From the NCBI RefSeq assembly GCF_003731635.1, contig NZ_RCUA01000089.1, forward strand, positions 1 to 64,000: 64,000 nucleotides of DNA, written 5' to 3'. Origin of the DNA: Marisediminitalea oceani (GTDB taxonomy: Bacteria > Pseudomonadota > Gammaproteobacteria > Enterobacterales > Alteromonadaceae). This document shows, in pieces, positions 51,628 to 61,827 of this stretch (position 1 is the stretch's first letter; each line of letters starts with the position of its first letter). Below the pieces are notes generated by a model. The model ran no database searches. It saw only the letters and a list, made by a program, of their open reading frames with translations, and was not told the DNA's origin. The position numbers and the translations under genes are program-made.

Positions 51628-53667
51628 CTAACCGCGGGTAAGTGCGTATTTCCCCGTATTTACCATATCAAGAGTAATGTTGGCGGCTTCCGTCAGGTAC
51701 GGATCCAGTTCCTCAAGCTCTTCAGGCAGGTCCTCAAGATCTTCAACAACTGGCAGTCCCATTCGGGATAAGCGTTCATTTGCACGGGTCAGTGCTTGTT
51801 GTTCGTTCTCTTTTTTCTCGGCCAGTCGCTCTGACTCAACCAGTGAAATAAAGTCTTTGTCTTTATTTTCTTTATATTTTTCGATGTCCTGCTGAATATA
51901 GCCAAACTCAGGATCCTGCATTATGCGGGCGTTGTGTTTAGCAGCCAGTACATCCAGTGCACTCTGGGTATCACCAAAGGTAGTGTAGTTAGCACGTTTG
52001 ATGCTATCCCATGGCAAGGCATTTTCTTCCTGGCTTTCGCCCCACTCTGCCGGATCGATTGGCGACGGGAACGGAATGTCAGGCACGACACCTTTATGCT
52101 GCGTGCTGCCGCCATTGATACGGTAGAACTTAGCAATGGTGTACTGCACGCTGCCCAGCGGGTTTTCGTAAAGGTCGTAAATACGCCCTAACCCTTTGTG
52201 CTGTTGCACTGTACCTTTACCAAAGGTTTGCTCACCGATGATCAACGCACGGTTATAATCCTGCATGGCAGCGGCAAAGATTTCTGATGCCGAAGCACTG
52301 TAGCGGTCAACCAGCACAGTGAGTGGGCCCTGATAGGCCACTTTACCGTCGGTATCCTGATTTACGCTCATGCGGCCGCCTTCATAGCGGATCTGCACAA
52401 CCGGCCCCTGTTCAATAAACAGGCCGGAAACCAGCGTGGCTTCTGATAAAGAACCACCGCCGTTACCACGTAAATCAACAATAATCGCTTTAACTTCTTC
52501 CGACTTCAGCGCATTAATTTCCTTTAATACGTCAACGTGGAGATTGTTATAGAAGCTCGGGATTGAGATAACGCCTACCTTTTCATTCTGATGCGGGCCT
52601 GAGTCAGGCACAAACACTTCAGATTTAGCAGCACGATCTTCCAGTTTAATTTTGTCACGGATTAAGGTTATCACCGACACCGTTGTACTTTCGGTTGCGC
52701 CTTTTTGCACCTGCAGGCGCACTTCACTGCCTTTCGGGCCTTTGATCAGCTCAACCACGTCATCCAGACGCCAGCCAATGACATCCACAAATTCTTCGTC
52801 TTCCTGAGCGACACCGATAATTTTATCTTCCGGCTTGATCGCCTTGGACTTATCAGCCGGACCACCCGGAACGATGCTCTTAATAACGGTAAAGTCATCT
52901 TCGCTCTGTAATACTGCACCAATACCCTCCAGCGACAGGTTCATGTCCATCTGGAAGCGCTCGGCGTTACGTGGCGATAAATAACTGGTGTGCGCTTCGA
53001 TGCTTCGGGCAAATGAGTTCATTACCGTTTGGAACACGTCTTCGCTTTGAGTTTGTTTAAGACGCTTAATGGCTCGCTCGTAACGCTTGGTAAGCAACTC
53101 TTTGATCTTATCCTGCTCTTTACCAGCCAGCTTAAGGTTTAGCGCATCGTACTTAACGCGCTGACGCCATAACTCATCAAGCTCATCCTGATCCACGGGC
53201 CAGGCAGCCTCTTCACGGTCGTAATAAAACTTATCGCCTTCTTTCTCGAAGTTAAACTCGCCGTCGAGCAGCGTTAAGGCATATTCATAGCGACCAATGC
53301 GTGATTCGAGGTTGCGATTAAACATGTCATAAGCCACTTGCAGGTTTCCGCGCAGAATGGCTTCGTCAAATTCATCCCGATGCTTGTTAAATTCAGCAAT
53401 ATCGGACGCTAAAAAGATATTTCGATTTCCGTCGAGAGATTTGAGATAGCGGTCGTACACTTTCTCAGATAACGAATCATCCAGTTTGATCAGTTTGTAA
53501 TGTTCACGGGTGAACAGCGTACTGATGCGCTTTGCCGCAGAGGAATGCTGCGGCTCTTGCTGGAGAATGGGCAGATCTTCGACACTATTGCCAGATGTAA
53601 CCGCACCGGCTCCTACGCTTAACGCAAGAATTGCACTGGCAACGGAAATGCGAAGTATATCTTTCAT
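51628..53667 (-). CDS. prc: Tail-specific (C-terminal processing) peptidase Prc
   Basis: This 679-residue periplasmic serine protease has a signal peptide (about residues 1-22), an N-terminal helical domain, a PDZ domain (about 240-320), and the S41 catalytic part. The catalytic dyad is Ser459 in DRYSASASE and Lys484 in GEQTFGKGTVQ, with the same 25-residue spacing as in E. coli Prc. It degrades proteins with nonpolar C-termini and processes penicillin-binding protein 3. It follows proQ by four bases, the same order as in E. coli. Confidence 0.95.
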   Translation of the reverse strand: MKDILRISVASAILALSVGAGAVTSGNSVEDLPILQQEPQHSSAAKRISTLFTREHYKLIKLDDSLSEKVYDRYLKSLDGNRNIFLASDIAEFNKHRDEFDEAILRGNLQVAYDMFNRNLESRIGRYEYALTLLDGEFNFEKEGDKFYYDREEAAWPVDQDELDELWRQRVKYDALNLKLAGKEQDKIKELLTKRYERAIKRLKQTQSEDVFQTVMNSFARSIEAHTSYLSPRNAERFQMDMNLSLEGIGAVLQSEDDFTVIKSIVPGGPADKSKAIKPEDKIIGVAQEDEEFVDVIGWRLDDVVELIKGPKGSEVRLQVQKGATESTTVSVITLIRDKIKLEDRAAKSEVFVPDSGPHQNEKVGVISIPSFYNNLHVDVLKEINALKSEEVKAIIVDLRGNGGGSLSEATLVSGLFIEQGPVVQIRYEGGRMSVNQDTDGKVAYQGPLTVLVDRYSASASEIFAAAMQDYNRALIIGEQTFGKGTVQQHKGLGRIYDLYENPLGSVQYTIAKFYRINGGSTQHKGVVPDIPFPSPIDPAEWGESQEENALPWDSIKRANYTTFGDTQSALDVLAAKHNARIMQDPEFGYIQQDIEKYKENKDKDFISLVESERLAEKKENEQQALTRANERLSRMGLPVVEDLEDLPEELEELDPYLTEAANITLDMVNTGKYALTRG

Positions 53668-53671
53668 ATTA

Positions 53672-54334
53672 CTACCTCTTGGAACGTGCTAAACGCAGTG
53701 TTTGCGGATTAACCTTTACTACCATCCCCGTATCCAGTTGAACATGTACACCGTCTTTTGCTACTTCGGTAATTACCGCGTGCATTGGTGCCTTGCCTAG
53801 TTTTACCGTAACTGATGTACCAACGGTTAAATCGGCATCAGACAGCTTGGCCGGGGGCGTCTTAATTGGTCTGCTATTTTTCGATTTAGTTCCGTTATTA
53901 TAGCGTCCGGCAGGAGATTTACCCGCTTTCTCACCGCTATTCGCCGCAGATGAACGGCCATCTTTCTTACGATTTGCCTGTACTGCCTGCTTACGTTTTT
54001 CAGCAGCCTTGGCTTTGCTCTCGTCCAGTTGCTTTTTGGCGTGCTCTTCGTGTTCTTCTTCTATCGCCGCATCCTGATTTCCGTCCAGATCAACGCGAAA
54101 GTTCCCTTTCTTGATGCTGTACAAATAGCGCCAGCTATTTGTGTAATGGCGTAAGCTCGAGCGCAGCAGCGTTTTACTAACGCGTTCCTCTTCGGCGAGG
54201 CGCTCGGCAAGATCCTGAAAAATGCCAATTTTAAGGGGTTTGGCTTCACCTTCTAAGGTAAAGCAATTAGGAAATGTCTCGGCAAGAAAGGCAATAACCT
54301 CTTTGCTGTTACTAAACTTCTGTGATGATTCCAT
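53672..54334 (-). CDS. proQ: RNA chaperone ProQ
   Basis: This 220-residue protein has an N-terminal FinO/ProQ domain (about residues 5-115, with FPNCFTLEGEAKPLKIGI and LRRSLRHYTNSWRYL-type segments), a basic and flexible linker, and a C-terminal Tudor-like domain ending MVVKVNPQTLRLARSKR. ProQ binds structured small RNAs and mRNA 3' ends. The frame continues to TTG 54343, but ATG 54334 is preferred. It precedes prc by four bases. The window also encodes a candidate small RNA at 58857-58962 that could be a client. Confidence 0.92.
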   Translation of the reverse strand: MESSQKFSNSKEVIAFLAETFPNCFTLEGEAKPLKIGIFQDLAERLAEEERVSKTLLRSSLRHYTNSWRYLYSIKKGNFRVDLDGNQDAAIEEEHEEHAKKQLDESKAKAAEKRKQAVQANRKKDGRSSAANSGEKAGKSPAGRYNNGTKSKNSRPIKTPPAKLSDADLTVGTSVTVKLGKAPMHAVITEVAKDGVHVQLDTGMVVKVNPQTLRLARSKR

Positions 54335-54355
54335 CAATGTCAATGTGTGTCAGTG

Positions 54356-54640
54356 TTAATCCAGATTGTTTGCATCATCCCAAGTTGCTAAGAGATGGTC
54401 AACCCAATCAAGCAAATCATCATCATTTACGTACAATAAATTGTCATCCTGATGCCAAATTGACCAGGTATGGGCCAATAATTTTTCTAAACGCTCGATT
54501 TCGATGTCTTCTTCGGCGCGATCATAAACCATGTGTAACACGGTATTGAGACGTTCTGCGGCCTCATCAGGATCCTCAAACACATCTTCCATATCTTGCC
54601 AGGTGGCCAGAACCACCTGAATATCTACCATGTGCTTCAT
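54356..54640 (-). CDS. Hypothetical acidic protein, 94 aa
   Basis: The protein is strongly acidic, with many Asp/Glu residues and a Trp-rich C-terminus (HTWSIWHQDD, DDDLLDWVDHLLATWDD). It is soluble, with no signal or membrane segment. The ATG at 54640 overlaps the stop codon of the msrC gene (ATGA), and it ends 22 bases before proQ, so it is embedded in the msrC-proQ-prc operon. I do not recognise the family. An association with RNA or translation proteins would be inference from position only. Confidence 0.65.
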   Translation of the reverse strand: MKHMVDIQVVLATWQDMEDVFEDPDEAAERLNTVLHMVYDRAEEDIEIERLEKLLAHTWSIWHQDDNLLYVNDDDLLDWVDHLLATWDDANNLD

Positions 54641-55095
54641 GATAATTCCGCCACCAGAGCATCCACAATGGCCACCAAACCGGCTTCGTCTTCGGCACTA
54701 AAGCGGGACAGTTTTGGACTATCAATATCCAGTACACCAACCAGCTCGTCGTTTACCACAATCGGGATAACAATTTCTGATTCTGACGCGGCGTCACAGG
54801 CAATATGCCCGGGAAACGCGTGAACATCGTCGATACGCTGGATGGTATTGGATTGCGCTGCCGTGCCGCATACGCCTTTGCCCATCGGAATGCGAATACA
54901 GGCTGGCAGCCCCTGAAACGGGCCCAGTATTAACTGCTCTTCTTTATAAAGATAAAAGCCGGCCCAGTTAACGTCTTCCAGATTGTGATAAATCAACGCG
55001 CTTAAATTAGCCAGGTTGGCAATTAAATCAGGTTCGCCGGCAATCAGGCTTTTCGCCTGTTCAATTAATTGAGGGTAAATGCTACTGTCGTTCAA
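54637..55095 (-). CDS. msrC: Free methionine-R-sulfoxide reductase (GAF domain)
   Basis: This 152-residue GAF-fold enzyme matches E. coli MsrC (YebR). It includes DVNWAGFYL, LGPFQGLPACIRIPMGKGVCGTA and FPGHIACDAASESEIVIPI, and its three cysteines at about 66, 76 and 100 correspond to the catalytic set. It reduces free methionine-(R)-sulfoxide. The open frame extends to 55194 without similarity to the family, so I chose TTG 55095, which gives the start MNDSSIYPQLI. This start has only a weak GAG upstream. Confidence 0.88.
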   Translation of the reverse strand: MNDSSIYPQLIEQAKSLIAGEPDLIANLANLSALIYHNLEDVNWAGFYLYKEEQLILGPFQGLPACIRIPMGKGVCGTAAQSNTIQRIDDVHAFPGHIACDAASESEIVIPIVVNDELVGVLDIDSPKLSRFSAEDEAGLVAIVDALVAELS

Positions 55096-55183
55096 ACTAT
55101 AATTCTCAATTGAAAAGTTACAAGACCGGCAGAGTGTAGCAGTTCCCTCAATAAAGGTTAATCGGTGAAAATCGCCCTGGTGA

Positions 55184-55861
55184 TTAATTCTCAATAGCGA
55201 AGGTAACGTTCACCGAAGCTGAGGTATCAGTCTGGCCGGGTAGACTGAAAGCATCTTCCTGTTGAACACGCATTCTTACCCCAACCGGTGGCTGGTTATA
55301 AGACATGGATTCGCTAATCGAAATGACCCCGGCGATAGTTACGCCCATTTGTTTAGCGATAAGGCTGGCGCGGTCTTTGGCGTCTTCCACCGCGGCAATT
55401 AGTGCCTCGCGATAGACCTTTTCGGGATTGGAGTTAATAAACTCAAACTGATCAATGCGGTTAATGCCGCGCTTCATAGCCCCATCGAGCACAATATCGT
55501 AGTTTTGCAATTGATTTGAGGTTACGCGTACCTGCCTACTCAGTATAAACCCCTTATGTTCTCTGCCATTAGGTGTGTGTTCATACCACGGGGATAAATT
55601 GACTGACATTGACTGTATGTGCTGTTCCGCAACGCCCTGAGACAATAAAAAGCTCACTACGGCTTTAAGTTTGGCGTTGGCCTGCTCGTTAAGCTTGCTC
55701 ACTACCGCACCACGCTCTTCAATGACCATGGTCAGGGTATAAGCATCTGGCGCCGCCGCAACAATCCCCTGGCCAGACACCTGTAACGTTTTTTCGTCTG
55801 CCTGAGAATGAAAACTTAACGCCAGACCCAGCGCAGCAAATGCAATGACTTTCCAATTCAT
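55184..55861 (-). CDS. SIMPL domain (DUF541) periplasmic protein
   Basis: This 225-residue protein has a signal peptide (about residues 1-21, cut after SQA). It shows DUF541 landmarks: LQVSGQGIVAAAPDAYTLTM, REALIAAVEDAKDRASLIAKQMG and a final SASVNVTFAIEN strand. SIMPL proteins (for example BP26 and YggE) are periplasmic and oligomeric; their function is unclear, with links to oxidative stress. It is transcribed with the msrC group or alone; there is an 88-base gap to msrC. Confidence 0.88.
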   Translation of the reverse strand: MNWKVIAFAALGLALSFHSQADEKTLQVSGQGIVAAAPDAYTLTMVIEERGAVVSKLNEQANAKLKAVVSFLLSQGVAEQHIQSMSVNLSPWYEHTPNGREHKGFILSRQVRVTSNQLQNYDIVLDGAMKRGINRIDQFEFINSNPEKVYREALIAAVEDAKDRASLIAKQMGVTIAGVISISESMSYNQPPVGVRMRVQQEDAFSLPGQTDTSASVNVTFAIEN

Positions 55862-55940: not shown

Positions 55941-57170
55941 TTAGCCAAAGAACCAGTAACTCACCACAATTGCGGTGGCAATACCGGCCACGTCGGCTGC
56001 CAGACAACAGGCTACGGCATAGCGTGAGTGTTTAATGCCTACTGCGCCCAAATACACAGCCAGCACATAAAACGTGGTTTCGGTAGAGCCCTGCATCACC
56101 GACGATAAACGCCCGGCAAAGGAGTCTGCGCCATGGTGCTGCATAGTTTCAATCATCAGTGCCCGGGCACCACTGCCACTGAGCGGTTTCATTAATGCGG
56201 TGGGTAACGCATCCACAAAGCGCGGATCAAAGCCCATCCACCCTGCTGCGGTAGCAATCATCTGGACCAGGATATCCATTACCCCACTGGCGCGTAACAT
56301 GCCAATAGCGACTAACATCGCTAGCAGAAAAGGAATGAGAGATACCGCTACTTCAAAGCCTTTTTTGGCGCCATCAACAAATTGCTCATAGGTGTTATTG
56401 CCTACCCGCCAGCCGGAAATAAGCACACCGACCACAAAGGCAAACAGCAAGCTGTTTGCCACAATAGCTGACTGACTGGCCAGCTCAGAGGCGGCCAACT
56501 GGGCAAAATATAAAATTACCGCCGCCAGTAAGCCAAACACACCCACCAGATACAGCAGCACCACACGATTAAACAGGTTAATACGCTGAACCAGGCAGGT
56601 AACAATCAACCCTGCCAGCGTTGATGCACTGGTGGCCAGTAAAATAGGAATAAACACATCTGTGGGCTGGGCCGCGCCCTGCTCGCCACGGTACAGGAAT
56701 ACCGCGATGGGAAATAAAGTGACTGACGAGGTATTGAGCACCAGAAACAGGATCTGGCTGTTGGTGAGGGTATCTTTTTTAGGCGCCAGGGTTTGCATAT
56801 CCTGCATGGCCTTAATACCAAACGGCGTTGCCGCATTATCCAGGCCAAGCAGGTTGGCCGACATATTCATGGTAATACTGCCCAGCGCCGGATGGTCGCG
56901 GGGAATGTCGGGCATGATGCGGCATAAAAACGGTGCCAGTACCCTGGAAAACTTTTTGATTAAGCCGGATTTTTCAGCCACTTCAAATATGCCCAGCCAG
57001 AAAGCCAGTACGCCTATCAGGCCAATGGCAATCTCTACACTCAGCGTGGCCATGCCGCTTACCGCATTCATTACATCCTGAAAGCCGCCAGGGTTTTCGC
57101 CCCACAGAGCCTGATATAAGGTCGCCAGAAATGCGCTGACAATAAAGATAAGCCAAATTCGATGCAGCAT
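55941..57170 (-). CDS. Fused SpmA/SpmB-like nucleoside-recognition (Gate domain) membrane protein
   Basis: This 409-residue inner-membrane protein contains two Gate/nucleoside-recognition halves. The first has NMSANLLGLDNAATPFGIKAM (the SpmA signature) and the second has GSTETTFYVLAVYLGAVGIKHSRYA (the SpmB signature), a fusion of two genes that are separate in Bacillus. Despite the name, bacteria without spores have it too. It probably moves a small solute, but the substrate is unknown. It begins with ATG and has about ten hydrophobic spans. Confidence 0.88.
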   Translation of the reverse strand: MLHRIWLIFIVSAFLATLYQALWGENPGGFQDVMNAVSGMATLSVEIAIGLIGVLAFWLGIFEVAEKSGLIKKFSRVLAPFLCRIMPDIPRDHPALGSITMNMSANLLGLDNAATPFGIKAMQDMQTLAPKKDTLTNSQILFLVLNTSSVTLFPIAVFLYRGEQGAAQPTDVFIPILLATSASTLAGLIVTCLVQRINLFNRVVLLYLVGVFGLLAAVILYFAQLAASELASQSAIVANSLLFAFVVGVLISGWRVGNNTYEQFVDGAKKGFEVAVSLIPFLLAMLVAIGMLRASGVMDILVQMIATAAGWMGFDPRFVDALPTALMKPLSGSGARALMIETMQHHGADSFAGRLSSVMQGSTETTFYVLAVYLGAVGIKHSRYAVACCLAADVAGIATAIVVSYWFFG

Positions 57171-57400: not shown

Positions 57401-58522
57401 TTATTTTAATACCGTCTTTAATGCCGCCAGACAAAAGTCGACGTTTTTGTCGGTACAGGCGGCGCCCATCAGACCAATTCGCCATACTTTGCCGGCAAAG
57501 GCACCCAGGCCTGCACCAATTTCCAGATTAAAATCATTTAACAGGCGGCCACGGACCTCAGCATCGTCTACTCCCTCAGGAATACGAACTACGTTTAACT
57601 GTGGTAAGCGGTAGGCTTTATCAACGGCCATTTCAATACCCAGTTTCTCAAGGCCGGCTACCAGCTTGTTATGCAGGGTTGCATGGCGTTGCCAGGCGTT
57701 CTCGAGACCTTCTTCGTGCAACATAACCAAAGATTCATGCAGTGCATAAATACTGTTTACCGGTGCAGTATGGTGATAAGCACGTTTTCCGCCCTGGCCC
57801 CAGTAACCAACAATCAGGTTCATATCCAGAAACCAGCTTTGCACCGGCGTTTTACGGCCTTTAATCACCTCAAGGGCCTTATCGCTGAATGAAACCGGCG
57901 AAATGCCCGGTACACAACTTAAGCATTTTTGCGAACCGGAGTAGATCGCATCAATTTGCCAGTCATCAACGGCCAGCTCGATGCCGCCCAGCGACGTAAC
58001 CGCATCAACAATAGTCAGGCAATCGTACTGACGGGCTAGTGCACACATTTTCTCGGCGTCATTGCGCACACCGGTAGAGGTTTCGGCGTGAACAAAAGCT
58101 ACGATTTTGGCTTCCGGGTGAGCTTTTAACGCGTCTTCGAGCTTATTGAGATCGGTTTGCGTGCCCCAGTCGTCTTCAACTACCACAGCGGTGGCACCAC
58201 TACGCACCACGTTTTCGCGCATACGCATGCCAAACACGCCGTTGATGCACACGATAACCGTGTCGCCCGGCTCAATAAGGTTAACAAACGCCGCTTCCAT
58301 CCCGGCCGAGCCTGGTGCGGATATCGGCATAGTTAACGCGTTTTCCGTTTTAAAGGCGTACTGCAGTAACTCTTTGGTTTCATCCATCAAACCAATAAAA
58401 TCAGGATCGAGGTGACCCACGGTACTGCGAGCCATGGCATTTAACACACGAGGACTCACGTCAGACGGACCCGGGCCCATTAACGTACGTTGTGGCGGAA
58501 TATGACTGCTGTATGATTTCAT
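57401..58522 (-). CDS. Serine/alanine-glyoxylate aminotransferase family protein
   Basis: This 373-residue class V PLP enzyme carries the cofactor lysine Lys199 in YSGSQKCLSC. Other family landmarks are MGPGPSDVSPRVL near the start, APGSAGMEAAFVN (PLP phosphate region), and HAETSTGVRND. It transfers the amino group of serine or alanine to glyoxylate, giving glycine. A role in the serine cycle is not supported by neighbours, so glyoxylate detoxification or glycine formation is likelier. It is monocistronic, with a long upstream region. Confidence 0.93.
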   Translation of the reverse strand: MKSYSSHIPPQRTLMGPGPSDVSPRVLNAMARSTVGHLDPDFIGLMDETKELLQYAFKTENALTMPISAPGSAGMEAAFVNLIEPGDTVIVCINGVFGMRMRENVVRSGATAVVVEDDWGTQTDLNKLEDALKAHPEAKIVAFVHAETSTGVRNDAEKMCALARQYDCLTIVDAVTSLGGIELAVDDWQIDAIYSGSQKCLSCVPGISPVSFSDKALEVIKGRKTPVQSWFLDMNLIVGYWGQGGKRAYHHTAPVNSIYALHESLVMLHEEGLENAWQRHATLHNKLVAGLEKLGIEMAVDKAYRLPQLNVVRIPEGVDDAEVRGRLLNDFNLEIGAGLGAFAGKVWRIGLMGAACTDKNVDFCLAALKTVLK

Positions 58523-58856
58523 TGATGATACCTGCTCAGTAAAGAAAACCTATGGGCGCTATTCTGGCAATTCGGTTACCAAACCACAATCGCAGTTTCG
58601 AGCGATTAGCTGATTATCATTATTCATACAGTGAATAGAAAAGCTAGCATATGATACACGTAAGTATATAGAACATTTTTAATACACATAACCTGTGGAT
58701 AAATATTGCACAAACTGGTTATATTTTGTGCATTCGCTGTCAATTAAGTGTTCAATGACTGGCGTAAAGTACTGGTTAGTATCTATAATTGATTAAAAAT
58801 GGGACAGAACAAAAAAATTGTTTATAAATTGAACGATTTTGAGCTATGATTACAAA
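58523..58856. other. Intergenic region upstream of the aminotransferase gene
   Basis: This holds the minus-strand promoter for the aminotransferase and, at its right end, the plus-strand promoter of the small RNA. An eight-base inverted repeat, TGCACAAA-N10-TTTGTGCA, lies at 58707-58732. I see no protein-coding gene here. Confidence 0.6.
58707..58732. repeat. Inverted repeat, operator candidate
   Basis: TGCACAAA (58707-58714) and TTTGTGCA (58725-58732) are perfect eight-base arms around a ten-base spacer, one and a half helical turns between arm centres. It may bind a dimeric regulator of the aminotransferase gene or of the divergent small RNA. Confidence 0.5.
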
Positions 58857-58962
58857 TCTACAAAGACGATTTGTTCACTTCTCCCTTTGTAAAAGTTAGC
58901 GCACGGCTCAGCAATGAGCCATTCCCCTAGGCCCGGAGCTTTTTAAGTTCTGGGCATTTTTT
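58857..58962 (+). ncRNA. Probable trans-acting small RNA, about 106 nt
   Basis: The region carries a -10 box TATGAT at 58845-58850 and then three consecutive stem-loops. Stem 1 is TACAAAG (58859-58865) with CTTTGTA (58885-58891) around a pyrimidine-rich loop ending in CTTCTCC. Stem 2 is GGCTCA-GCAA-TGAGCC (58905-58920), with a GNRA tetraloop. Stem 3 is GCCCGGA/TCTGGGC (58931-58955), followed by six T residues (58957-58962), a Rho-independent terminator on the plus strand. No plus-strand gene lies upstream, so the terminator must end a short RNA. The CTTCTCC loop and the single-stranded CCCC before stem 3 could pair with Shine-Dalgarno regions. I cannot match it to a named family. Confidence 0.6.
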
Positions 58963-59066
58963 ATGGGCGAAGAAAAATTTGTCGGTGAACTACTGCCAGC
59001 GCCGTTAGCGCCAGCAGTTTGTCGAGTCATTCAATCATGCCTTGAGAACGGCAAAGAATTATGGGA

Positions 59067-59933
59067 TCAGTCGGTGATCCGCATCAGGCCTTCCTGCATG
59101 GTAGACGCCACCAGTTCACCCTGCTGGTTAAACAGCTGACCCCGTACCAGGCCTCTGGCGCCCCCACTGGCAGGGCTCTCCATCGAATAAAGTAACCATT
59201 CGTTCATGTTAATCGGGCGATGGAACCACATGGCGTGGTCGATAGTGGCAATCGCCAGGTTACGGTCGGTAATTTGCACGCCATGGGGCTGCAGCGACGT
59301 ACTTAAGAAGTGATAGTCGCTGGCATAGGACAGGGCTGCCTGATGCATGGCCTGTGAATCGCCAAGGTCTTCGTTTGCCCGTAACCAGGTATACCGCTCT
59401 GGCTTATCATTTTTTGACGTAAATGAACGCACAGCATCGACGGTACGAATATCAATGGGGCGATGGTAGCTCAGCGCTTCACGCATTCTGCGGCCGATAT
59501 TCTCATAGTTACGCTCGTACATTCTGATGTCAGGTTCCACCTCTTCCGGTGCAGGCACATCAGGCATCTGAGCATACTGATGCTGCATGCCCTCTTCCGG
59601 TTGCTGAAATGAAGCTGTCATGTAAAAGATGTTGCGGCCATTCTGAATGGCTTTTACCCGCCGGGCAGAAAAGCTTTTACCATCCCTCACGATTTCAACG
59701 TCGTAAACGACCGGCTGCTTGGCATCACCGGGTAATAAAAAGTAGCTGTGAAAAGAATGTGCAACGCGGCCCTCCGGCACGCTTGCCCACGCCGCCTTTA
59801 ATGCCTGACCTAACACCTGGCCACCAAATAAGGCACGAAAGCCCAGATCCCAGCTCTGGCCACGATAAAGTCCCTTTTCCAGGGTTTCTAATTCCAGTAA
59901 AGAGGCAACTTTAACTTCGTTTTGCTGTTCCAA
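59067..59933 (-). CDS. tesB: Acyl-CoA thioesterase II TesB
   Basis: This 288-residue double-hotdog thioesterase matches TesB across its length (FRALFGGQVLGQALKAA, HSFHSYFLLPGD, and the late MWFHRP and GLVRGQLFNQQGELVASTMQEGLMR). It hydrolyses medium- and long-chain acyl-CoA in the cytoplasm. It is preceded by 49 bases after the kinase gene and could belong to the bkd-rlmJ-kinase transcript, or have its own promoter. Confidence 0.95.
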   Translation of the reverse strand: MEQQNEVKVASLLELETLEKGLYRGQSWDLGFRALFGGQVLGQALKAAWASVPEGRVAHSFHSYFLLPGDAKQPVVYDVEIVRDGKSFSARRVKAIQNGRNIFYMTASFQQPEEGMQHQYAQMPDVPAPEEVEPDIRMYERNYENIGRRMREALSYHRPIDIRTVDAVRSFTSKNDKPERYTWLRANEDLGDSQAMHQAALSYASDYHFLSTSLQPHGVQITDRNLAIATIDHAMWFHRPINMNEWLLYSMESPASGGARGLVRGQLFNQQGELVASTMQEGLMRITD

Positions 59934-59982
59934 GAGTAACTCCCAATAGATAAACAGATAGGTTCACTGCCAATAAGACTGA

Positions 59983-61827
59983 CTACCGCGTTCGGGGATT
60001 GCGAGGATAAAACTTGTCGGCACACTTTGCCCGGTGCTCAAAAAAACGCGTGTCTTTGTAAGGTAACTTCATAAAACCACAGGTGCCTTCACCTGTAAGT
60101 AGTGGCAGTGAATTAATGATTTCGTTCAGTAACGCATTAAACTCATTTTCCTTCGTATGATCAAGTAAACGATAGTAACTATGAATTTTTAAGTGCTTCT
60201 CAAGCGCCTCGAAAATGATACAGCCAGTATGATGAATGGCATTCAGCGCTTTAATGGCCTGCATAATTTGTGGCGGTAAAGCGAGGAACTCGTCCGGATC
60301 ATCACCATCCTCAAAGTACGAATGCACCCGGCTTTCAGAAGTACTGAGTGAAACACTGGATTTTTCATACGGGATAACGGTAGCGGCACCGGCCACAAAC
60401 GGCGCTTCAATTTGTTCACGCTCAATATGCAGGGTGTTTTTGGCATCAAACAGGCAGCATTTAAATACCCCTTGGCGGTGAATGGCCCGGGCCAAAGTAA
60501 CCACGGTATTGACGGCATGCTTAAAAGCCTGCTCCCTGGCCGGATCCTGTAGATTCAGGCTGGAATCAATGTATACGCCTTCCGGTTGCCAGTGAATAAC
60601 CAGACCGCCTACCACCGGATAACGGGCCAGACGGCTGACCGCCGCTAAAAAACCTTTTTCGGTGGCGCCCATGCCATCCAGGTAGTTTTTGTAATACCGC
60701 TCAAACTGGGCGTCATTTAAATAGCTTAACTGGCTGAGCTCATCCGACTGCTGCTCGCTAAGATCGTTTTGCTGGCGTAAAAACGACTTGCGGGAACTAT
60801 ATACCACCGATTCGATATTCTTGCGCTCTTTGGCTACCCACACCGGTAACAGGGATTCGTAGCGCTCCACGCTATCATTAGCAAACACCAGGTTTTCCAG
60901 CAATTTAAGGTGCGACAGCAAATAGTCACCACCACTGTGCTGTTCTGAAACGCTGTCGCTGAGCATATAGGTAAGAATGTCAGACAGTATTTTGGGTAAT
61001 CCCAGCGAGGATGGCGGGATCACCTGATGGGCAAACCGCGCCGACTGGCCGGAAGCCAGTGCATACAGAGTGCCAGCCAGCCCCTGCTCGTCAAAGCGTG
61101 GGCTTGAGCGCTCACCATTAAGCTGCGCATCGCCAATAAAGTAGATATCCCCCAACCTGGCATTGGTTTGCTGTATATCTCCCGACATTAAATCAAGCAC
61201 ATTGTTTTGCACCGGCTGCAGGTGTTCATCAAGCTGTGCGTACACACTGGAGCCCCAGTCGATAAGGCTCAGGCGTTCGTTGTTTTCATCCCATACCAGG
61301 TTGGAAGGTTTAATGTCGCCATGTACGATAGGCCGGTGACCGCCGTCGAGCTCAAACTGGCGTAAATACAGCAGGATTTCACCCAGTTGCACGGCCATCT
61401 TTACAATCAGTCGCGGCCCTACAGGCCCTTCGCGTAAACTGTATTGCTCAAGGTCGATGCCCGGCGCCCGTTCCATCATCAGAATGGATTGCCTGCCCCG
61501 TTGGTAAAACTCTTTCACTGCCGGAATATGCGAGTGGCTGAGCAGCCCCTGCATAAACGCTTCTTCCTCGAGGCGGTCCTGCATGCTCACGGGCAGTGTT
61601 ATGCGGGTGAATTTAAATACCAGCTCTGCACCGGCGTGATCGCGCCCGCCAAAGGCAAAGCCATAAGCGCCTTTGCCAATCAGGCTGATATCGGTAAAAC
61701 CCAGGCTTTCGAGCTGCGCGATACACAGCGCAATCCAGTCTTTAAGCTTTTTGGCATCCGCATGAGAAAGCAGATACACCGACTGCTCCTCAGGAATATA
61801 AAAGTGGCGGATGCCTTTTCTGGTCAT
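59983..61827 (-). CDS. Serine/threonine protein kinase-like protein
   Basis: This 614-residue soluble protein has an N-terminal kinase domain (about 40-330): G-loop GKGAYGF (51-57), Lys72 in VFKF, catalytic loop HGDIKPSN (His169, Asp171, Lys173, Asn176) and a DWG version of the DFG motif (Asp190). All catalytic residues are kept. The C-terminal 280 residues are unlike any domain I recognise. The start ATG overlaps the rlmJ stop codon by four bases (ATGA), so it is translated with the rRNA methyltransferase. Target proteins are unknown. Confidence 0.85.
   Translation of the reverse strand: MTRKGIRHFYIPEEQSVYLLSHADAKKLKDWIALCIAQLESLGFTDISLIGKGAYGFAFGGRDHAGAELVFKFTRITLPVSMQDRLEEEAFMQGLLSHSHIPAVKEFYQRGRQSILMMERAPGIDLEQYSLREGPVGPRLIVKMAVQLGEILLYLRQFELDGGHRPIVHGDIKPSNLVWDENNERLSLIDWGSSVYAQLDEHLQPVQNNVLDLMSGDIQQTNARLGDIYFIGDAQLNGERSSPRFDEQGLAGTLYALASGQSARFAHQVIPPSSLGLPKILSDILTYMLSDSVSEQHSGGDYLLSHLKLLENLVFANDSVERYESLLPVWVAKERKNIESVVYSSRKSFLRQQNDLSEQQSDELSQLSYLNDAQFERYYKNYLDGMGATEKGFLAAVSRLARYPVVGGLVIHWQPEGVYIDSSLNLQDPAREQAFKHAVNTVVTLARAIHRQGVFKCCLFDAKNTLHIEREQIEAPFVAGAATVIPYEKSSVSLSTSESRVHSYFEDGDDPDEFLALPPQIMQAIKALNAIHHTGCIIFEALEKHLKIHSYYRLLDHTKENEFNALLNEIINSLPLLTGEGTCGFMKLPYKDTRFFEHRAKCADKFYPRNPRTR

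Follow-up and report, generated by a model that had tools for sequence, protein, structure and literature searches.

The locus described here lies in a 64 kb stretch of DNA, referred to as the window, flanked by the genes for a class-V aminotransferase and an acyl-CoA thioesterase, both of which are on the minus strand. The genes prc, proQ and msrC are found further to the left on the same strand, and the features of the locus itself, most of them predicted on the plus strand, are as follows:

51628-55194, minus strand: prc, proQ and msrC (Pfam Prc, ProQ and GAF matches), in the order seen beside E. coli sdsR
57401-58522, minus strand: class-V aminotransferase gene, left-hand neighbour
58818-58966, minus strand: sub-threshold match to RF00101 (SraC/RyeA), 29.8 bits against a gathering cut-off of 37, not counted as a gene
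58821-58826, plus strand: -35-like hexamer TTTATA within the TTGTTTATAAA block (58818-58828), from the promoter match
58844-58852, plus strand: sigma-S-like -10 element CTATGATTA (hexamer TATGAT, 58845-58850), from the promoter match and the CTAYNNT motif
58857-58962, plus strand: predicted SdsR RNA (start +/- 2 nt, end within the U run), from RF00111 with the start set by analogy to E. coli
58859-58891, plus strand: predicted first stem-loop, UACAAAG (58859-58865) with CUUUGUA (58885-58891), from the fold of the likely transcript
58878-58885, plus strand: CUUCUCCC, lineage-specific pyrimidine stretch at the first loop, from counts of TCTCC/CTCCC before the core
58896-58904, plus strand: core UUAGCGCAC, single-stranded and likely the main seed, from AGCGCA invariance and complements in E. 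coli targets
58905-58920, plus strand: second stem-loop GGCTCA-GCAA-TGAGCC, from the fold and covariation
58931-58962, plus strand: Rho-independent terminator with an 11-pair stem (58931-58955) and a U6 tail, the expected Hfq-binding end, from the fold and a terminator scan
59067-59933, minus strand: acyl-CoA thioesterase gene, right-hand neighbour

SdsR is a well-known small regulatory RNA that is produced when bacterial growth stops, and it is commonly described as an enterobacterial RNA. A covariance-model search of the window (cmscan, Rfam 15) gave one match at the gathering level, to RF00111 (SdsR_RyeB) at 58864-58963 on the plus strand, with 48.6 bits against a cut-off of 38; the first-pass annotation, in which a small RNA matching no known family was placed here, is therefore corrected on this point. 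The match spans the full model length (1-100); it is exact over UUAGCGCACGGCUC and near-exact over GAGCCAUU.CCCUA, the first 30 bases align loosely, and the score is modest because the 5' third of the window RNA is unlike enterobacterial SdsR.

Our data argue, with a probability of roughly 0.92, that the locus is the Alteromonas orthologue of sdsR and that its product would be made by RpoS-containing polymerase, held by Hfq and paired with mRNAs, with targets probably largely different from those in E. coli. The evidence computed here comprises covariance-model membership, a kept core, compensatory changes, a sigma-S-like -10 element, a common gene neighbourhood and the presence of hfq, rpoS and proQ in the genome. 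Judged from its sequence, the RNA is a further member of an already known family with a 5' end that differs from the E. coli version, and given this different 5' end the set of target genes perhaps differs as well. With E. coli K-12 SdsR (b4433) it has in common the core UUAGCGCACGGCUC..GAGCCAUU.CCCU, the second stem-loop, a covarying terminator, a length of approximately 100 nt, a CTAY-type -10 box and the prc-proQ-msrC neighbourhood, whereas its 5' third is unrelated in sequence and carries CUCUCCC. The genus name Alteromonas, used for the window and the searched relatives, was taken from named records with an identical core.

Promoter and transcript boundaries

The -10 box noted in the first pass, TATGAT at 58845-58850, is present and conserved among the loci. 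Together with TTTATA it gives a promoter match of 9/12, which taken alone is within chance (2 found versus 2.8 expected in 2 kb). Of 78 distinct loci, the window included, 60 have the motif CTAYNNT 40-75 nt upstream of the AGCGCA core (dinucleotide shuffles: mean 5.9, max 12), 40 have the stricter CTAYNCT (shuffle mean 1.2) and 27 have CTAYNCTTA (0.08), and since many of the 78 loci are closely related these counts are not independent events. CTAYNNT is also present in 35 of the 36 stretches that carry the exact genus core and have at least 45 nt of upstream DNA. It is the conservation of the predicted promoter across loci, not the single-site match, that places it beyond chance. The CTAY..CT pattern in the -10 region is a sigma-S signature; the window -10 fits the loose CTAYNNT only, the stricter CTAYNCT being absent, and by this loose motif the promoter appears sigma-S-like. 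A gene for RpoS is present in the genome (TIGR02394, 460.3 bits versus a cut-off of 378.7). The motif set consisted of 77 loci plus the window; L001, L002, L024-L027, duplicate sequences and the mis-centred L006 were left out, L006 being treated separately in the pyrimidine-stretch and GTTTATA counts, and L091, L097 and L098, which have no core match, are in no motif count.

Upstream of the core, GTTTATA is present in 16 of the 19 genus members and the full TTGTTTATAAA block in 10 of 19; it may act as a -35/UP-like element or as a site for a regulator.

For E. coli K-12 we took TATTCT as the -10 hexamer; it ends 6 bases upstream of the annotated sdsR 5' end, and primer extension placed the start of the RNA 1 nt downstream of an earlier reported end (PMC6610125), which we assumed to be identical to the annotated 5' end. 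Applied to the window, this spacing puts the start of SdsR near 58857. The interval originally proposed for the RNA, 58845-58962, was accordingly kept at its end and shortened at its start, the 58845 side being promoter DNA and the RNA being predicted to cover about 58857-58962. At the 3' side the terminator was described correctly; it has an 11-pair stem (58931-58955) followed by an A and then six T residues at 58957-58962. The statement that no plus-strand gene lies upstream also holds, as the only open reading frames of at least 60 aa just upstream (57671-57892 and 58146-58415) are inside the aminotransferase gene. An independent small RNA with its own predicted promoter and terminator is well supported.

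Conserved core and secondary structure

The hexamer AGCGCA is invariant in 48 of 48 aligned sequences, an invariance that is partly preselected, the family model having been used to find the loci and a core pattern to place them, and the core TTAGCGCACGGCTC..GAGCCATT.CCCT is nearly identical from E. coli to Alteromonas. The 48 sequences were hand-picked to cover the groups, and a separate genus alignment comprised 19 members. For core and terminator in the 48-sequence alignment, 96.2% of 715 cells are paired versus 82.4% in shuffles, and 104 cells are double-changed versus 26.4 in shuffles (max 33 with slid partners; 0/500 shuffles reach 104); both partners have changed in 8 of the 15 pairs, an unexceptional number (shuffle mean 6.3, with 54 of 500 shuffles reaching 8). 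Both-sided changes affect 7 of the 9 scored terminator pairs, and the closing pair of the second stem-loop is A-U in 26 and U-A in 13 of the 48 sequences. Within the genus alignment (19 members) no both-sided change was seen in the central stem and the terminator, hence the covariation support comes from the wider 48-sequence set. The central stem and the terminator are maintained by compensatory changes.

Three hairpins were initially proposed, of which the second (58905-58920) and the terminator are borne out. The first was not retained in its original form: the fold calculated from 58845 pairs 58852-58858 with 58868-58874, begins two bases past the -10 hexamer and draws on promoter bases, and it cannot form from a start near 58857. 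With that start, five of the seven bases of the 58852-58858 arm are lost and UACAAAG/CUUUGUA would form instead. Folding from 58856 gives this stem (58859-58865/58885-58891) and folding from 58860 the same stem minus one pair, in each case with 1/200 shuffles equally stable. The stretch folds better than 200/200 dinucleotide shuffles (z -3.4), and trimmed to start at 58856 it has a z of -3.2 with 1/200 shuffles as good. At another register of this region many genus members can form a 5' stem, most commonly as UUUGCA/UGCAAA. In the 19-member genus alignment 79.6% of its cells are paired, versus 77.1% for shuffles and at most 58% with slid partners, and its covariation score is reached by 16/500 shuffles. 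The search for compensatory changes, which had been suggested as a check of all three stems, was thus positive for the central stem and the terminator, while for the 5' stem covariation gives weak support, within the genus only.

The loop of the first stem contains CTTCTCC (58878-58884). In 15 of 19 genus members the 45 nt that precede the core contain TCTCC or CTCCC (shuffles: mean 1.6, max 6), as they do in 32 of 36 exact-genus-core stretches (one of the 37 was dropped, having too little upstream DNA). The corresponding numbers are 4/15 for loci of other genera in the family, 3/19 for the remaining loci and 0/22 for enterobacterial-group loci (group f18, so named from scores near that of E. 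coli). Being conserved and lineage-specific, the stretch has a plausible role as a seed, as was suggested for it at the outset, and the CUCUCCC loop could be a second seed that pairs with Shine-Dalgarno regions. The same suggestion for the CCCC linker (58924-58927) gained no support from pairing; the linker is conserved in the 48-sequence alignment, and the complements in E. coli target genes match the core.

Targets and the antisense strand

In E. coli, SdsR is transcribed mostly by sigma-S polymerase, has a Rho-independent terminator at its end and has tolC, mutS and yhcB among its targets (PMC6610125); under prolonged nitrogen starvation no other RNA has as many Hfq-linked mRNA partners, and SdsR reduces the translation of yeaG through a site at -31 to -22 that was predicted and tested with a reporter (PMC10954441). 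For the organism studied here we propose that RpoS-containing RNA polymerase would make an approximately 105-nt SdsR RNA at entry into stationary phase or starvation, that Hfq would hold its U-rich 3' end and that the single-stranded core UUAGCGCA would pair with mRNAs near the ribosome-binding site, mostly lowering translation; in this lineage the CUCUCCC loop of the 5' stem would perhaps also pair with mRNAs. The genome encodes hfq, and the RNA ends in U6, a putative Hfq-binding end.

The E. coli yeaG site (-29) holds TGTGCTAA, a complement with one G-U of the core UUAGCGCA, in agreement with the reported site (PMC10954441). Core complements are also present in E. coli tolC (GCGCTAA at -33) and yhcB (TGCGCTAA at +14), which we infer to be pairing sites, and none was found in mutS, such that three of the four E. 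coli targets have one. On the basis of these complements the core was taken as the main seed. For tolC, yhcB, mutS and yeaG, the regions from -150 to +60 relative to the profile-match start were searched in 12 Alteromonas genomes each; the start codons are approximate, and yeaG of the own genome has two possible starts. A 7-base core complement with one G-U or none is present in 0/48 regions (shuffles 2.6), and an 8-base complement with more G-U allowed in 3 of 48. Hence the RNA is conserved, and conservation of its targeting of tolC, yhcB, mutS and yeaG, whose orthologues differ from the E. coli regulon in lacking a core-seed site, is unsupported; the SdsR targets here are probably largely unlike those of E. 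coli. The yeaG gene itself is present in 12/12 genus genomes searched. Among the yeaG upstream regions of the genus (L318-L329), several have a CTAAGCTGAAA-like box some 30-45 bases before yeaG, perhaps a sigma-S promoter of the yeaG operon.

Whole-RNA duplex energies against tolC, yhcB and mutS were dropped, as the known E. coli targets, with z values of 0.35, 0.35 and -1.2, were not distinguished either and the duplexes spanned the whole RNA. Counted genome-wide against a backwards control, the core complement TGCGCTAAC occurs 44 versus 32 times in the own genome and 30 versus 29 times in G009. For G010 the numbers are 96 versus 32, an excess that is absent in the two other genomes and possibly reflects a repeat family. 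Near the starts of 43 hand-picked open reading frames of the window, three weak core-seed sites were found (ORFs 3978, 10081 and 42197).

A more specific reading is that SdsR of the Alteromonadaceae has been rewired, in that promoter, core and terminator were kept, CUCUCCC was gained as a second Shine-Dalgarno seed, and tolC, yhcB and yeaG left the regulon. We offer this tentatively, with the odds somewhat against it.

In E. coli, SraC/RyeA (RF00101) lies on the strand opposite SdsR, and the two form a pair of RNA toxin and RNA antitoxin; that such a pair, with a minus-strand antisense RNA driven by sigma-70, exists at the window locus appears unlikely. The RF00101 cut-off of 37 is reached by three of the six loci scanned, E. 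coli (L058, 175.1 bits), L079 (51.1) and L070 (45.7), the last of which is from the window's own family, and the window has an RF00101 match on its minus strand. The latter, at 29.8 bits, is however below the curated cut-off and largely the reverse complement of SdsR, and is therefore not independent evidence. Moreover, conservation within the genus is poor over the 100 nt beyond the terminator, the region of the ryeA start in E. coli (the commonest base averages 48%, and 7 of 100 columns reach 80% or more), and 12/12 orthologues of yhcB, the target linked to toxicity, lack a core-seed site (2/12 have one if more G-U is allowed). No minus-strand sigma-70-like site was found in 58000-60000, nor within 100 nt past the terminator in any of the 19 genus members; as the scan also overlooks the promoter of ryeA in E. 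coli, this result carries no weight for or against the pair.

Neighbourhood, distribution and significance

The window proteins are 56, 45 and 50% identical to E. coli MsrC, ProQ and Prc, respectively. The E. coli K-12 order is prc-proQ-msrC-letAB-rsmF followed by pphA-sdsR-yebY, and the common order prc-proQ-msrC supports orthology with E. coli sdsR. Relative to these three genes the window sdsR is on the opposite strand compared with E. coli. In E. coli and several other groups msrC and sdsR are separated by the letAB-rsmF genes, which a search of 20 kb at the window locus did not find. Proteins of the window and of E. coli were also used to search 40 stretches of 20 kb, each surrounding a match (20 from the own family and 20 from others); neither these stretches nor the window yielded YebY or PphA, the immediate neighbours in E. 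coli. In 29 of the 40 stretches (own family 10/20), sdsR has one or more of Prc, ProQ, MsrC, LetA, LetB and RsmF within 10 kb. Ten of the 11 stretches without any of them are from the own family, and three of the 11 carry the nucleoside-gate transporter gene that the window has at 55941. Among the stretches of other families, 15/20 have RsmF near sdsR; in the own family one does (L070).

The presence of proQ in the window was the ground on which regulation through a chaperone had earlier been called plausible, and the gene is 4.5 kb from sdsR, as would fit an RNA that depends on its product. ProQ is, however, within 10 kb of sdsR in 20 of the 40 stretches (9/20 in the own family) as well as in E. 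coli, and its proximity is thus a mark of common descent, inherited with an old neighbourhood; E. coli SdsR is also among the main Hfq-linked RNAs (PMC10954441). Regulation through ProQ is left without support by these data, and we consider it very unlikely.

RF00111 matches above the cut-off were obtained in 19/19 genus genomes searched and in 23 of 31 relatives overall. An order-wide draw of 394 genomes gave 199 with a match at E <= 0.01, 181 of them above the cut-off; the 175 non-matching genomes of the draw are outside the listed rows, and among the rows listed the window's own family has 32 genomes with and three without a match. Exact copies of the 41-nt genus core occur in the named genome collection in 37 stretches, a single metagenome bin accounting for two of them, and the carriers are Alteromonas, Salinimonas, Aestuariibacter, Marisediminitalea, five entries labelled Alteromonadaceae only and one labelled Gammaproteobacteria only.

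L002 (23 bits), a possible further copy within the own genome, was rejected, as it lacks TTAGCGCACGGCTC and by eye resembles an ordinary terminator, and so were the weak extra matches in relatives, L025 (34.3 bits), L026 (31) and L027 (28.2), which also lack TTAGCGCACGGCTC and are terminator-like. L025 (1501-1608) and L027 (1501-1606), at 28-34 bits and with no core, have a similar hairpin with a long terminator and similar upstream sequence, and are probably one element in two genomes, a 3' UTR terminator.

No plasmid or phage record was matched by blastn (E <= 1e-5). The general SdsR core is present in at least 120 stretches of IMG/VR; among the 80 listed (L198-L277) it is less than 2 kb from a locus end in 79, and the Alteromonas-type stem is present in 0/80. 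From this end placement there are perhaps prophages at or beside sdsR, and a prophage 3' of sdsR is reported for Salmonella (PMC5913331).

These data also bear on whether the RNA represents a new family that resembles SdsR only in its hairpin layout. The 5' third unlike enterobacterial SdsR and the lack of core-seed sites in the orthologues of E. coli targets would fit such a family; it was rejected, and we regard it as highly improbable, given an RF00111 score above the curated cut-off, a core nearly identical from E. coli to Alteromonas, a graded series of related sequences in many families of the order, and synteny with E. coli sdsR. The least probable reading, that the strong intrinsic terminator between the two genes merely serves these genes with no separate RNA, is dismissed as both genes are on the minus strand with the U run on the plus strand, and as promoter and core are conserved along with the terminator.

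The literature searched contained no report that combines RyeB with Alteromonadales, and for Alteromonas with SdsR or RyeB it yielded only a review that names Pseudoalteromonas in another context (PMC7308464). The primary transcriptome of A. macleodii lists 127 chromosomal sRNAs (PMC5864184); RyeB is absent from the main text of that paper, and SdsR was taken as absent from the same main text because the search for Alteromonas and SdsR did not return it. Outside the enterobacteria, RyeB is annotated in Vibrio parahaemolyticus (svpa1713.1; PMC6601013), a likeness at the level of the family name, and in V. fischeri SdsR was said to be previously unreported (PMC6299092).

Combining family models with synteny can quickly resolve a locus that would otherwise be read as a bare terminator plus hairpins. 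An SdsR orthologue present across a marine family, with a different front end, would provide a natural experiment for telling the fixed parts of a stress RNA from those that can shift to new targets. Finally, our data suggest that SdsR is a candidate starvation regulator in a widespread ocean heterotroph.
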